Positions 26,240 through 32,877 of a stretch of DNA of 60,413 bases are shown here, piece after piece. Positions within the stretch are counted from its first letter, which is position 1; the number at the start of each line of letters is the position of its first letter. Source of the DNA: an uncultured Erysipelotrichaceae bacterium (GTDB taxonomy: Bacteria; Bacillota_I; Bacilli_A; RF39; UBA660); NCBI GenBank assembly GCA_902767245.1, contig CACXGO010000021.1:1-60413 (forward strand). Direction: 5' to 3'. The position numbers were made by a program, and so were the translations under genes. Under the pieces are notes generated by a model. That model saw only the letters and a list, made by a program, of their open reading frames with translations. It ran no database searches and was not told the DNA's origin.

Positions 26240-27019
26240 GTGGCACGTCACAAAGTAGAAATTGCGAACGTGAATACTGCGGACTTAAAAGTTTTATCAC
26301 ATAAAGAAATGATTAAACTTTTTAAAAAATTAAAAACTGGAGATAAAACTGTAAAAGAAGAATTAATCAACGGAAACTTAAAATTGGTTTTATCAATATT
26401 AAAAAAGTATACTAATAGAACAGATAACATGGATGACTTATTTCAAGTTGGTTGTATTGGTCTTATAAAAGCTATTGATAATTTTGATTTAAAACATGAA
26501 GTAAAATTTTCGACTTATGCTGTTCCTATGATATTAGGAGAAATAAAGCGTTATATAAGAGATAATAACAGTAGCATACGAATATCAAGAAGCATTAAAG
26601 ATCTTGCATATAAAGCGTTAAAGGCGAAAGAATTTTTGACCAATAAATACAATCGTGAAATAAATCTAAAAGAACTAGCAGAATATATGAAAATTGATGA
26701 AACTGAAATAAATGAAGCTTTTGAAGCCATGTATGATACTATAAGTATATTTGAACCAATTTTTAACGATGGGGGAGAAACAATATATTTATGTGATCAA
26801 TTAAGTGATAAAAAAAATTCATTATACCCACTTGATGATCATATTGCCTTAAATGATGCCTTAAAAAAATTAAAACCTAAAGAAAGATATATTATTAATG
26901 AAAGATATATATATGGTAAAACCCAAATGGAATTAGCTGAAGAAATTGGAATTTCGCAAGCTCAAATATCAAGACTCGAAAAAAATGGAATTGAAACCTT
27001 AAAAAAAATAATAAAATAA
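26240..27019 (+). CDS. sigG: Forespore RNA polymerase sigma-G
   Basis: A 259-aa sporulation sigma factor. The N terminus MARHKVEIANVNTADLKVLS matches the SigG-specific leader in B. subtilis, followed by region 2 (NGNLKLVLSILKKYTNR, DDLFQVGCIGLIKAIDNFDL, KFSTYAVPMILGEIKRYIRD), region 3 and region 4 (GKTQMELAEEIGISQAQISR). It would drive late forespore genes. The GTG start, with a site occluded by a 19-bp hairpin, implies weak and controlled translation. In Bacillus it directly follows sigE; here three genes intervene. The next plus-strand gene is ylmC, as near sigG in Bacillus. Confidence 0.96.
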   Translation: MARHKVEIANVNTADLKVLSHKEMIKLFKKLKTGDKTVKEELINGNLKLVLSILKKYTNRTDNMDDLFQVGCIGLIKAIDNFDLKHEVKFSTYAVPMILGEIKRYIRDNNSSIRISRSIKDLAYKALKAKEFLTNKYNREINLKELAEYMKIDETEINEAFEAMYDTISIFEPIFNDGGETIYLCDQLSDKKNSLYPLDDHIALNDALKKLKPKERYIINERYIYGKTQMELAEEIGISQAQISRLEKNGIETLKKIIK

Positions 27020-29126: not shown

Positions 29127-29149
29127 AAAAAGCAACAAATTGCTTTTTT
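29125..29149. terminator. Shared terminator between uppP and the PASTA gene
   Basis: A-run GCAA, loop CAAA, TTGC T-run; symmetric for both convergent genes and touching both stop codons. Confidence 0.88.
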
Positions 29150-30875
29150 ATTGCGATGTAATAATTACATTATATGTTTTACCTTGTGTTACTTTTGTTC
29201 CATCTTTTACCTGACTATTTTCATGAATATAACCAGCACGAGGATAAGTATTACTTTTTTTATAACTAAAAACAAAATTAACATCAGGATAGTTTTTTGC
29301 AAAATATGTTTTTAAGGTGTTAGCTGTCGCACTAGCATTGCCTAAAGTTAATTGTGATTCAAATATTTGAACCGTAAATGTTTTAGCAGTTCCTTTACTT
29401 AATGTAATAATAAGTGATGTTCCACTTATAACACTAGAACCAGCTTTCTTGTTTTGGCTTACAGCAACATCCTTTGATGTAGTAGAGTATGAGCCATATG
29501 TAAATGAACAAGAAAGTCCTATATTTTTACATGAAGATGTTATTTCCGACTTTGATTTACCAACATAGTTTGGAATTGTTACCGCTTTTCCGTTAGAAAT
29601 AGTTACAATAATAGGAACATTTTCATCTATTAAATCATTAGGAGATAAGGAGAATTTAATAATATTACCTTTGCTAACATTATTATTAAACTCATATTCT
29701 TCTTCATATTTAACATTATATGTATTGGCCCATTTTCTAAATTCACTTAATGATTTAAATGAAAGCATTTTTAATGCACCTTTAGAAGTAGTAACTTTTA
29801 CCAGTGTTCCTTCAGATATTTCTTCATTTTCTTTATAGTTTGCGCTAATTACTTTTCCTGCTTCAATTTTATTGTTATAGGCATCAGTTAATTCAATTTT
29901 TAAATTATTATCTGTAATCCATTTAATTACTTCAGAAATAGTCATTTTAGTTAAATCTGGAACTAAAATTTTATTTCCTTTTGAAACAGTTAAAATAACT
30001 TTAGTATCAAAAGGTTTAATAATCTCGTTTTCTTTTACAGATTGAGAAATAACAACATCTTTGTTTTCATTACTAAAATCATATTTGATTTCATAATTAA
30101 TACCATTTTGTTCTAAATATAGAGTAGCATCAAAAATATTTTTACCAACTAATGAAATCATAGTAATTTCTGATAGTTCACTTTTTTTACCTAATGAAAC
30201 AACAATTTTTACTTCTTCATTTCTTCTAATTTCACCACTTACACTTTGAGTTAAAACAATTCCTTTTTGATTATAATCATTTACTTCATAATCAATTTTA
30301 ACATTATTTAAATGTAAATCAGTAATATCATTTAAAAGTAAACTTATATCTTGCCCAACATATGAAGAAAGTACCACAGTTTTATCATAATTAATACCAT
30401 TAGAAATAGTTACGTTTAATTTTTCAATTTCTTTGACATCAATATTAAATTGATCTTGAGCAAAAATATTATTTTCTTTAAATGAATCACTGAACTCATA
30501 GGTTTGCACTAATTCAACTTTATTTTTAGAAGCCCATTCAACTGCTTCACTAATATTTTTGCCTATAAAATTAGGTACCAAATTTTCAGTTCTTGCTACT
30601 GTTTTTCCAGTATTAATAAGAAAAAAAGTACCAATTCCAAATACCAAAACCATTACTGAATTCAAAATATTAAACTCTGATTTTTTCGATCCAATTCTAA
30701 TTTGATTTATAACTGCTAGAATGGAAGTCATAACTAAAAGCCCAATAATTAAAGCAAGAAGCTTAAAATTTGAAAAATTTCTTTTATAAAGAACAATATA
30801 TACTGCAAAAGCCAAAACTAATACAAGTACAACTATTGATATAATTAAACCATAATTCTTTTTTCCTTTATTCAT
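29148..30875 (-). CDS. Membrane protein with six PASTA-like domains, no kinase
   Basis: A 575-aa protein with three helices in the first 90 residues (about 9-29, 37-58 and 68-87) and then about six PASTA-like repeats of 60-65 residues, each ending in a motif such as VTISNG, IVVSLG or VTTSKG, with LVPDLTKMTISEVI and VTIPNYVGKSKSEI as good matches. A last 75-residue segment may be a degraded seventh. PASTA domains bind muropeptides or lipid II and normally belong to Ser/Thr kinases or penicillin-binding proteins; neither catalytic domain is present. It could sense wall precursors or partner a kinase encoded elsewhere. The ATG follows TTGGTGATGAT. Confidence 0.78.
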   Translation of the reverse strand: MNKGKKNYGLIISIVVLVLVLAFAVYIVLYKRNFSNFKLLALIIGLLVMTSILAVINQIRIGSKKSEFNILNSVMVLVFGIGTFFLINTGKTVARTENLVPNFIGKNISEAVEWASKNKVELVQTYEFSDSFKENNIFAQDQFNIDVKEIEKLNVTISNGINYDKTVVLSSYVGQDISLLLNDITDLHLNNVKIDYEVNDYNQKGIVLTQSVSGEIRRNEEVKIVVSLGKKSELSEITMISLVGKNIFDATLYLEQNGINYEIKYDFSNENKDVVISQSVKENEIIKPFDTKVILTVSKGNKILVPDLTKMTISEVIKWITDNNLKIELTDAYNNKIEAGKVISANYKENEEISEGTLVKVTTSKGALKMLSFKSLSEFRKWANTYNVKYEEEYEFNNNVSKGNIIKFSLSPNDLIDENVPIIVTISNGKAVTIPNYVGKSKSEITSSCKNIGLSCSFTYGSYSTTSKDVAVSQNKKAGSSVISGTSLIITLSKGTAKTFTVQIFESQLTLGNASATANTLKTYFAKNYPDVNFVFSYKKSNTYPRAGYIHENSQVKDGTKVTQGKTYNVIITSQ

Positions 30876-30982: not shown

Positions 30983-31011
30983 TTGACAATCTATTGAATT
31001 TTTGATAAAAT
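30983..31011 (+). promoter_or_regulatory. Strong promoter of the OLE-like RNA with -35 palindrome
   Basis: TTGACA (30983-30988), 17-base spacer, TAAAAT (31006-31011) preceded by TGA, a near-consensus housekeeping promoter with an extended -10. The -35 lies in a 7-1-7 perfect inverted repeat (30975-30989, TTGTCAA T TTGACAA), which could be an operator. Predicted start near 31018. Confidence 0.82.
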
Positions 31012-31017
31012 TTACTT

Positions 31018-31587
31018 TGTTAGTGGCACATTATTCTAGTCACTTCTAATTGTTATGGAGACGGGGCTAAAAATCCGTTGAAGAGCATATATTTCACCTT
31101 TTGGTTTTTGCTTCTTACGCCCAGTTTGGGGTGATAGCTGAAAGGAATGAATTATTGGGCTCTCATAATGGCATATGAGCAAGTTCCAATAATTTGAACG
31201 TCTATTTTATAGACAAAACCTACTAGGTGGCGAATAGTTGCGAGTAGTGTAGCTTGTCTTGAGTGAATGTTGGGGATAATTAGCAACATTTTAAATATAT
31301 GCGGCCACATATATTTAATCTACAAATTTGAAACAGCCTTTGCAAAAAAGAATAAGTAACAATTAAGTGTTTGAGGAAAACTCCTAGGAATGTGTATAGG
31401 TAAGGATTGCAGTGCGAACTAAGTGGTAATCAAGTCATATAGATGGAAACACTATATTAAGTTTTTTAAAGGGGAACCGCTTTTGGGTAACTGAAAGTAA
31501 AACTTAGAGAAATTCTACTTGACCTATGTCGCAAAGTTTACTTCTTATACGCCATTATTTATTAATTAGAGCACAGCTCTTTTTTTA
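31018..31587 (+). ncRNA. ole: OLE (ornate large extremophilic) RNA, putative
   Basis: No gene fits this 570-base stretch, which is far less AT-rich than other intergenic DNA, has its own consensus promoter and ends in an intrinsic terminator. Several helices can be seen: ATTATTGG (31151) with CCAATAAT (31186) enclosing CTCATA/TATGAG, GTCTAT/ATAGAC (31200-31214), AATGTTG/CAACATT (31266-31290) and AAATATATG/CATATATTT (31293-31316). The gene 10 bases downstream is an OapA homologue, the membrane partner that is normally encoded beside OLE RNA, and the length fits OLE (about 600 bases). OLE RNA forms a membrane ribonucleoprotein linked to stress tolerance in Bacillota. The call rests on size, structure and neighbour, as I could not run the Rfam model RF01071. 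Confidence 0.8.
31568..31587 (+). terminator. Terminator of the OLE-like RNA
   Basis: AGAGC, loop ACA, GCTCT, then seven T. The ribosome site GGTGA of oapA begins four bases later, so oapA depends on read-through or on a promoter within the RNA gene. Confidence 0.85.
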
Positions 31588-31597
31588 TAGGTGAAGT

Positions 31598-32164
31598 ATG
31601 AAAAAATATGTTCAAATTTTAAAAAATGATGATAAAAAACACAAAAAAAATAAAAATAATGGATGGATAGTATTAATTACTATTTTATCTTTCATTATTT
31701 CTTTAGTATTTTCGTTTATAGCCGAAACAGTTTTACCTGATGTTAATATAATTTTAGGTATCATTTTGATTTTTTGTTTTATTTTAATTGGTGTACTATT
31801 TGACATGATTGGAGTTGCGGTTGCATCTGCAAATGAGGCACCATTTCATTCAATGGCAAGTCAAAAGGTAAAAGGAGCAGTAACTGCTATAAAAATGATT
31901 AAAAATGCTAGTAAAGTATCATCATTTTGTAATGATGTTATTGGTGATATATGTGGTATTATTTCAGGATCTGCAGGTATTACTATTTCCTTGAAAATTG
32001 GAAATTATTTAAATATAGATCAGCTAATTTTGACATTATTAGTAACTGCTTTAATTGCCGCAATGACGATAGGTGGTAAAGCAATTGGAAAAAGTATTGC
32101 CTTAAATAAAAGCAATATGATTCTTTATGAAACTGCAAAAATATTAAGTATTTTAAAAAAATAG
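31598..32164 (+). CDS. oapA: OLE-associated membrane protein OapA
   Basis: A 188-aa membrane protein with a Lys/Asn-rich cytoplasmic N terminus and about four helices (about 22-41, 49-75, 118-136, 141-160). The central conserved block is HSMASQKVKGAVTAIKMIKN followed by SSFCNDVIGDICGI, which contains a D-x3-D motif (Asp113/Asp117). OapA of Bacillus halodurans carries a D-x3-D motif (D104/D108 as I recall), mutation of which gives a dominant phenotype. OapA binds OLE RNA and brings it to the membrane. It lies directly after the putative OLE RNA. The stop is in a terminator stem. Confidence 0.82.
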   Translation: MKKYVQILKNDDKKHKKNKNNGWIVLITILSFIISLVFSFIAETVLPDVNIILGIILIFCFILIGVLFDMIGVAVASANEAPFHSMASQKVKGAVTAIKMIKNASKVSSFCNDVIGDICGIISGSAGITISLKIGNYLNIDQLILTLLVTALIAAMTIGGKAIGKSIALNKSNMILYETAKILSILKK

Positions 32165-32222: not shown

Positions 32223-32651
32223 ATGAATTTAGATGAACGTAAAGAAGCAATAAAAGAAATAGAAAAAATTAAAAAATTAGAATACAAATCAGGAGTAAAG
32301 AGCCATCATTATACTGCCAAAGAAGTAGTTATGGCAATATTAGTTGGTGGCAGTTTAGCTAGTTATATTGTGCAAAAAGGTGTTGAACCAATTGCAAATC
32401 TTGAAGCTCTTCCAAGTAATGGTTACTTAGAAGAAAGTTGGATTTGGATAAAACAAGTATTTTTACCAAAACTACGTAGTTTTCCAGAACTTTGGAATGC
32501 TATTAAGCCAAATAATAGTTTGGAAGGATTTACAGCTGCAACAACCGCTTTATTTGCAGGAGCTGGAATGTGGTTTCATCATAAAAAAGCTTTATTAAAA
32601 AAGCAACTAGATAAAGAACAAAGTGAAGAAATAAAAGGTTTGGGGAGATAA
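32223..32651 (+). CDS. Hypothetical protein with two hydrophobic segments
   Basis: A 142-aa protein I do not recognise. It has a charged, helical N terminus (DERKEAIKEIEKIKKLEYKS), a hydrophobic stretch at about 36-50 (VVMAILVGGSLASYIV), a Trp-rich middle, and a second hydrophobic stretch at about 104-118 (AATTALFAGAGMWF), so it may be membrane-associated. A TATAAT at 32193-32198 and GAGG before the ATG serve it. One base separates its stop from the next small gene, so the two are a pair lying between oapA and holA. Confidence 0.6.
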   Translation: MNLDERKEAIKEIEKIKKLEYKSGVKSHHYTAKEVVMAILVGGSLASYIVQKGVEPIANLEALPSNGYLEESWIWIKQVFLPKLRSFPELWNAIKPNNSLEGFTAATTALFAGAGMWFHHKKALLKKQLDKEQSEEIKGLGR

Positions 32652-32652
32652 T

Positions 32653-32877
32653 ATGAAGTTTGAAATTGGAGATATCATAACATTAGCTGATGATAAAGAT
32701 TATGTAATAAGTTGTGCTAAAAATTATGAAGGTAATTTATATATGTTATTAATAGAAATGCCTGATTATAAATCATTTAAGTATGTAAAAGTTATTGATA
32801 AAAGTAATTTAGAAGAATTAGAAGATATTGAATTAATTGAAAAATTATCAGCATTATTTACAAAAACTGAAGATTAA
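32653..32877 (+). CDS. Small hypothetical protein (DUF1292-like)
   Basis: A 74-aa acidic soluble protein beginning MKFEIGDIITLADDKDYVI, with a beta-rich pattern similar in size and style to DUF1292/YrzB-type small proteins, though I cannot confirm the family. GGGGAG in the end of the preceding gene is its ribosome site. Its stop codon forms the loop of a terminator, so it ends the small operon. Function unknown. Confidence 0.6.
   Translation: MKFEIGDIITLADDKDYVISCAKNYEGNLYMLLIEMPDYKSFKYVKVIDKSNLEELEDIELIEKLSALFTKTED

Follow-up and report, generated by a model that had tools for sequence, protein, structure and literature searches.

OLE is a large bacterial RNA located at the cell membrane, for which, to our knowledge, no biochemical job has been established after almost 20 years. 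Its partner protein OapA is described as a dimer that binds the RNA close to P2 and P4a. In H. halodurans, OLE and OapA form a membrane ribonucleoprotein that affects how the cells tolerate cold, alcohols, Mg2+ and poor carbon sources (PMC12265935, PMC10898510). The kink-turn, whose strands J4a/5 and J6/7 pair with each other in cryo-EM, is the OapC-binding site, L4 provides the A-A dimer contact in published cryo-EM structures, and P6 is described in the literature as the bS21 site and as the stem of the L6 kissing loop. About 60% of the species with OLE have OapB and about 45% have OapC, and hence neither protein is defining (PMC11332333). The occurrence of OLE in the reduced gut lineages RF39 and TANB77, in shortened variants and without OapB or OapC, was published in 2024 (Fernando & Breaker, PMC11332333).

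The locus described here lies in a 60,413-nt stretch of DNA (the window), which makes up a single contig of an assembly of 1.08 Mb and 76% completeness. With a probability of roughly 85%, we read it as a bona fide OLE ribonucleoprotein locus, specifying a stripped-down complex, in a genome-reduced and potentially spore-forming RF39-type relative.

OLE RNA and OapA at the window locus

The Rfam model of OLE (RF01071, gathering score 50 bits) matches the window at 31007-31571 on the plus strand, covering 565 nt and model positions 1-616 of 616 with 338.1 bits and an E-value of 1.1e-95 in cmscan, and no other Rfam family reached threshold in this region, all of them scoring at chance level. As such, the covariance model bears out the sequence-only reading, which had proposed a structured non-coding region of about 570 bases with promoter and terminator on this strand and at these coordinates and, with the OapA homologue downstream, had correctly named it OLE. 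In a 30-sequence alignment from the same family, 93 of the 130 predicted OLE pairs show at least one two-sided compensatory change. The minimum-energy fold of the window OLE alone lies only mildly below that of shuffled sequences (z -2.3), so that what identifies the RNA is the covariance model together with the compensatory changes of the relatives. This mild signal is what could be said for another large structured RNA class, or for an AT-rich leader structured by chance, but with OLE at an E-value of 1e-95 and every other Rfam family at chance level such alternatives are refuted, their probability being negligible.

The cmscan alignment recovers the conserved OLE core, namely L4 CUAAAAA, L5 CGCCCA, L6 UGGCA, the GGCC of P9 and ACUAAGUGGUAAUC. 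Helix names in the following list are taken from PMC12265935 and PMC12286853, and their placement on the window sequence is our own.

30983-31011, plus strand: OLE promoter, TTGACA-17-TAAAAT, with a TG extension of the -10 box (11 of 12 positions matched in a consensus scan)
31007-31571, plus strand: OLE RNA, RF01071 (cmscan; covariation in relatives)
31041-31056, plus strand: P3 5' strand (CACT, TAATTGTTAT), duplex with 31356-31369, named from published descriptions
31060-31079, plus strand: P4 hairpin, its loop being the conserved L4 CUAAAAAU at 31067-31074 (cmscan alignment)
31086-31097, plus strand: J4a/5, strand 1 of the kink-turn, lost; consensus AUCGAUGAAG, window ATATTTCA (alignment)
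31094-31144, plus strand: P5 stem, its loop CGCCCAG at 31118-31124 being the L5 kissing loop (cmscan alignment)
31150-31194, plus strand: P6 stem with loop AAUGGCAU at 31167-31174 (cmscan alignment)
31195-31199, plus strand: J6/7, strand 2 of the kink-turn, lost; consensus CCGUGGAGA, window TTGAAC (alignment)
31200-31214, plus strand: P7, shrunk to a short hairpin (33 consensus positions collapsed to 2 in cmscan)
31220-31247, plus strand: P8 hairpin (cmscan alignment)
31303-31306, plus strand: GGCC, the palindromic tip of P9, which acts as a kissing loop in the RNA dimer (sequence; cmscan alignment)
31356-31369, plus strand: P3 3' strand (GTAACAATTA, AGTG), duplex with 31041-31056
31390-31555, plus strand: domain 2 (P11-P15 region), which contains the invariant ACTAAGTGGTAATC (cmscan alignment; covariation)
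31568-31587, plus strand: intrinsic terminator AGAGCACAGCTCT followed by T7, hairpin AGAGC-ACA-GCTCT (sequence scan)
31589-31594, plus strand: ribosome-binding site of oapA, AGGTGA (sequence)
31598-32164, plus strand: oapA, open reading frame of a 188-aa membrane protein, with the D-x3-D codons at 31934-31936 and 31946-31948 (alignment; weak CNNM match; AlphaFold2)

Promoter-like sites near the OLE are, as a class, at chance level (4 found against 4.6 expected), and the weight therefore lies on the position of the OLE promoter, which would place the transcript start probably at about 31018, a plausible 5' end 7 nt past the -10 box. At the 3' end, one terminator was found where 0.2 were expected, and the RNA would thus run from its own promoter to this terminator. 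The P3 duplex has 14 bp and an energy of -11.1 kcal/mol, compared with -5.1 kcal/mol for shuffled strands, and P3, P4, the contact sequences of L4, L5, L6 and L9 and domain 2 are all retained in the alignment. One large clade of the family (e.g. L166, L028 and L165) has relaxed the otherwise conserved L4 sequence CUAAAAAU to, for instance, UUAAACAA or AUAAACCA, despite the role of this loop in the A-A dimer.

The start codon of oapA lies about 10 nt past the T run of the terminator and 27 nt past the OLE model match. The encoded protein is 42-50% identical to the OapA proteins that adjoin OLE in OLE-bearing Clostridia and roughly 46-63% identical to members from its own family, throughout which its relatives adjoin OLE, and D113-x3-D117 (DVIGD) is invariant in an alignment of 27 relatives. 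We take this motif to correspond to D100/D104 of the H. halodurans protein. Mutation of D-x3-D constitutes the OapA PM1 allele of that species (PMC9723947). The Pfam CNNM family (PF01595) scores 18 bits against the window OapA, below its cut-off of 28.4, and matches 20 of the 27 OapA members at E<0.01; an OapA profile searched against PDB sequences gave nothing significant. The AlphaFold2 model (pLDDT 88.9) is closest among PDB folds to the archaeal CNNM protein MtCorB (E 3.6e-3, probability 1.00, TM 0.48), followed by the CorC membrane domain (probability 0.99, TM about 0.5), with no E-value below 0.001. On this model, OapA is predicted to be a small CNNM-like four-helix membrane protein, in agreement with the published relation between OapA and CNNM (PMC11332333). 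The suggestion, made from the letters, that the downstream membrane protein with the D-x3-D motif is OapA was thus confirmed by homology as well as by predicted fold. OapA, made from the next gene, would hold an OLE dimer at the cytoplasmic membrane, and the complex may there tune the response to stress and Mg2+ as in H. halodurans.

Missing partners and the lost kink-turn

The sequence-only reading had proposed a look for OapB and OapC homologues in the genome, and there are none in the family: OapC was not found in any of the 193 family genomes at the cut-off of Pfam L7Ae, nor was OapB with the H. halodurans sequence from PDB 7k9b as query (0 of 193). The same searches recovered OapC in 14 of 14 OLE-bearing Clostridia and OapB in 13 of these 14. 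Since the window genome is 76% complete, its own gene absences rest on those of its relatives. The ribosomal protein bS21 is present in the window genome (G000) and in 177 of the 193 family genomes.

The OapC-binding kink-turn is likewise missing from the window OLE, both strands being gone. The motif is present in full-length OLE and is not a defining trait of the RNA family, other undisputed OLEs lacking it too. Using motifs looser than CGAUGAA, we counted among family OLEs of at least 530 nt 70 with both kink-turn halves, 7 (the window included) with neither, 3 without J6/7 only and none without J4a/5 only; that is, J6/7 is also missing from all members that lost the J4a/5 half (7/7). This co-loss gives a Fisher P of 7e-15, a statistic that ignores relatedness; the losses fall on several branches of the tree, where the informative independent pairs stand at 3 to 0, too few for significance. 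The joint loss of both halves is as such suggestive only, and its pattern fits the pairing of J4a/5 with J6/7 in cryo-EM. A loss of the kink-turn nearly everywhere in the family, as the strict motif CGAUGAA would have it, was rejected, as UGA(A) and GGAG are still there in the majority of full-length members. Given that OapC is absent family-wide and the kink-turn mostly kept, the motif either serves something besides OapC or decays slowly.

A CorC_HlyC (MpfA) protein was found in none of the 193 family genomes, including those without ole, so that the loss of OLE is not offset by MpfA in this family; with about a third of the family lacking both, this is evidence against MpfA and OLE as obligatory mutual substitutes. 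The genome had also been called spore-forming, which is supported by a sporulation sigma factor in the window and by spoIVA elsewhere in the genome. The former (26240-27019, plus strand) is of SigF/SigG type, with SigG as best match below the equivalog cut-offs, and the latter occurs in 165 of the 193 family genomes as well as in the window genome. No association of spoIVA with ole was seen across the 193 genomes (111/18/54/10, odds ratio 1.14, P 0.83), and the enrichment of sporulation genes that has been published for OLE carriers hence does not show up inside the family, as judged from one marker gene in incomplete genomes.

Distribution, gene order and probable shrinkage in the family

The named relatives are assemblies of uncultured Bacilli, Tenericutes, Mycoplasmatota and Erysipelotrichaceae, many of them from animal guts, and we infer that the window genome belongs to an RF39-type, genome-reduced and potentially spore-forming lineage. 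OLE was found in 129 of the 193 genomes of the same family, a strong OapA match in 129 and both in 126, with two OLE-only and two OapA-only genomes accounted for by contig ends. In a phylum-wide sample, which favours very complete genomes, OLE occurred in 12 of 344 and only in this family. An extension of the range of OLE, as had been expected of this copy, was therefore not borne out: its presence in such lineages is published (PMC11332333), OLE is ordinary in this RF39-type gut family, and the window locus adds one more copy. The RNA was not detected in the remaining 64 of the 193 genomes, nor in G115, the one congener searched, and the locus is thus dispensable within the family.

All 122 loci in which ole and oapA occur together have both genes in the same orientation, and in 112 of them the two are at most 150 nt apart. 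An OLE acting mainly as a cis-acting leader that controls oapA, instead of as an independent RNA particle, could explain why oapA follows ole in the same direction wherever the two lie together, and the terminator between the two is attenuator-like. However, ole precedes oapA by 180 to 3000 nt in about ten genomes and is on a separate contig in G003, the shortest OLE loci of the family (see below) show no room for a terminator ahead of oapA, and the OLE of H. halodurans acts as an abundant ribonucleoprotein (PMC9723947, PMC12265935), which makes this alternative quite improbable.

Several loci depart from the usual arrangement. In G034, an OLE in mid-contig (L169:2001-2603, minus strand) has no oapA downstream, and OapA was found nowhere in this 93% complete genome. 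G003, with oapA and ole on different contigs (C3 and C12), belongs to the same genus as G150, which has oapA at C1:94025-94612 and in which OLE was not detected. G025 carries, at the end of contig C3 (L115:1946-2414, plus strand), a second OLE-like copy beside a full OLE-oapA pair; it is degenerate in its 5' strand and P4 loop and cut by the contig end, and may be a paralogue, a relic or contamination.

A conserved neighbourhood around ole-oapA was not found, as only holA among the neighbours in the window recurs, in one other locus; the envelope genes beside which this copy had been placed are accordingly not a conserved part of the ole surroundings in relatives. Upstream of ole and pointing away from it, 29148-30875 (minus strand) encodes a membrane protein with six PASTA stretches, in which no kinase domain was found. 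The two frames after oapA, a 142-aa one of predicted membrane character (32223-32651, plus strand) and a 74-aa one (32653-32877, plus strand), have no Pfam or NCBIfam match and are not near ole in relatives.

The OLEs of the family fall into length classes of about 530-618, 464-519 and 378-381 nt. In the OapA tree, the 464-519-nt group, which is the published variant 2, forms one clade (SH-aLRT 95), the three carriers of 378-381-nt OLEs form one lineage nested in it (support 100), and the window sits in the other, full-length clade. These mini-OLEs (L112:2001-2378, plus strand; L113:3001-3378, minus strand; L114:3001-3381, plus strand; in genomes G106, G170 and G035) score 134-139 bits and are 90-95% identical to one another. 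They retain the 5' and 3' ends, P3 (11-13 bp), P4 and all of domain 2, have a small hairpin in place of P5, P6, P7 and P8 and a short P9 without GGCC, and each of the three has a TTGACA promoter and is followed directly by an intact oapA. That they occur in three different genomes, which carry the labels of two genera, speaks against an assembly fault, although all three are of one lineage. We found no report of a 378-381-nt size class in the open literature, and the published survey, which applied a floor of 235 bits to its own, different covariance model (PMC11332333), probably missed it.

The mini-OLEs also bear on whether the window locus is a decaying relic, with an OLE on its way out and no longer functional. 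The short P7, the kink-turn gone on both strands and the failure to detect OLE in the congener and in a third of the family would be in keeping with decay, but promoter and terminator are intact, P3 has its full 14 bp, the oapA frame is intact with all invariant residues, the conserved loops are still present, as is domain 2, pairs are kept by compensatory change across the lineage, and lineages long without the kink-turn (variant 2 and mini-OLE) still keep OLE and OapA. We thus consider a relic improbable and favour a working complex that is stripped down, which would do without OapB, OapC and the kink-turn and keep a membrane-length P3, P4 with the kissing-loop dimer contacts, and domain 2.

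The mini-OLEs suggest that P3, P4 and domain 2 with OapA are the core of OLE, with the kink-turn, the bS21 site and most contacts of the RNA dimer being dispensable. Loss of P5-P8 removes the kink-turn, the bS21 site and the L5 and L6 kissing loops, and with the GGCC tip also gone most of the cryo-EM dimer interface would be unneeded. We regard it as reasonably probable that OLE in this family is shrinking stepwise, from about 600 over 464-519 to 378-381 nt, towards a minimal but still functional ribonucleoprotein of P3, P4, short P9, domain 2 and OapA. A P3 that stays at membrane-spanning length while P5-P8 can vanish is what the integral-membrane model (PMC12265935) would predict, provided that the essential parts are P3 and domain 2 together with OapA.

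The window locus and its relatives thus amount to a natural deletion series of OLE within one bacterial family, in which OapB and OapC are absent, the kink-turn was lost several times and P5-P8 are gone in one lineage, with P3, P4, domain 2 and OapA persisting; as such, the series points to a working core made up of P3, domain 2 and OapA. Beyond the single locus, its value lies in partner absences backed by controls, the joint loss of the kink-turn halves, the lack of substitution by MpfA and a natural 380-nt OLE, which could be exploited as a construct for structural work on the domain left unresolved by cryo-EM.

Comparison with known systems

With the full-length OLEs of H. halodurans, C. 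acetobutylicum and C. botulinum (RF01071), the window OLE shares the overall fold, the L4, L5, L6 and L9 loops, P3, domain 2 and the downstream oapA. It differs in its length of 565 nt, the reduced P7, the loss of both kink-turn strands and a missing 12-nt hairpin after P10, and no OapB or OapC was found in its genome or family. OLE variant 1 of TANB77 (PMC11332333) has in common with it a shortened P7 and a reduced gut genome without OapB and OapC, and the 338 bits of the window fall in the 310-390 band of this variant, although the published model differs and the scores are only roughly comparable; the window is from a different lineage, however, and its P9 is still long with a GGCC tip. OLE variant 2 of RF39 (PMC11332333) comes from the same GTDB family, but is 464-519 nt long and lacks P7 and P8, whereas the window OLE keeps both and sits in a different OapA clade. 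Finally, within the CNNM-CorC-MpfA superfamily, the predicted fold of the window OapA is closest to the membrane domains of MtCorB and CorC, with a weak match to PF01595; unlike those proteins it has no CBS or CorC_HlyC domains, and the D-x3-D motif and the adjacency to ole are features of OapA.
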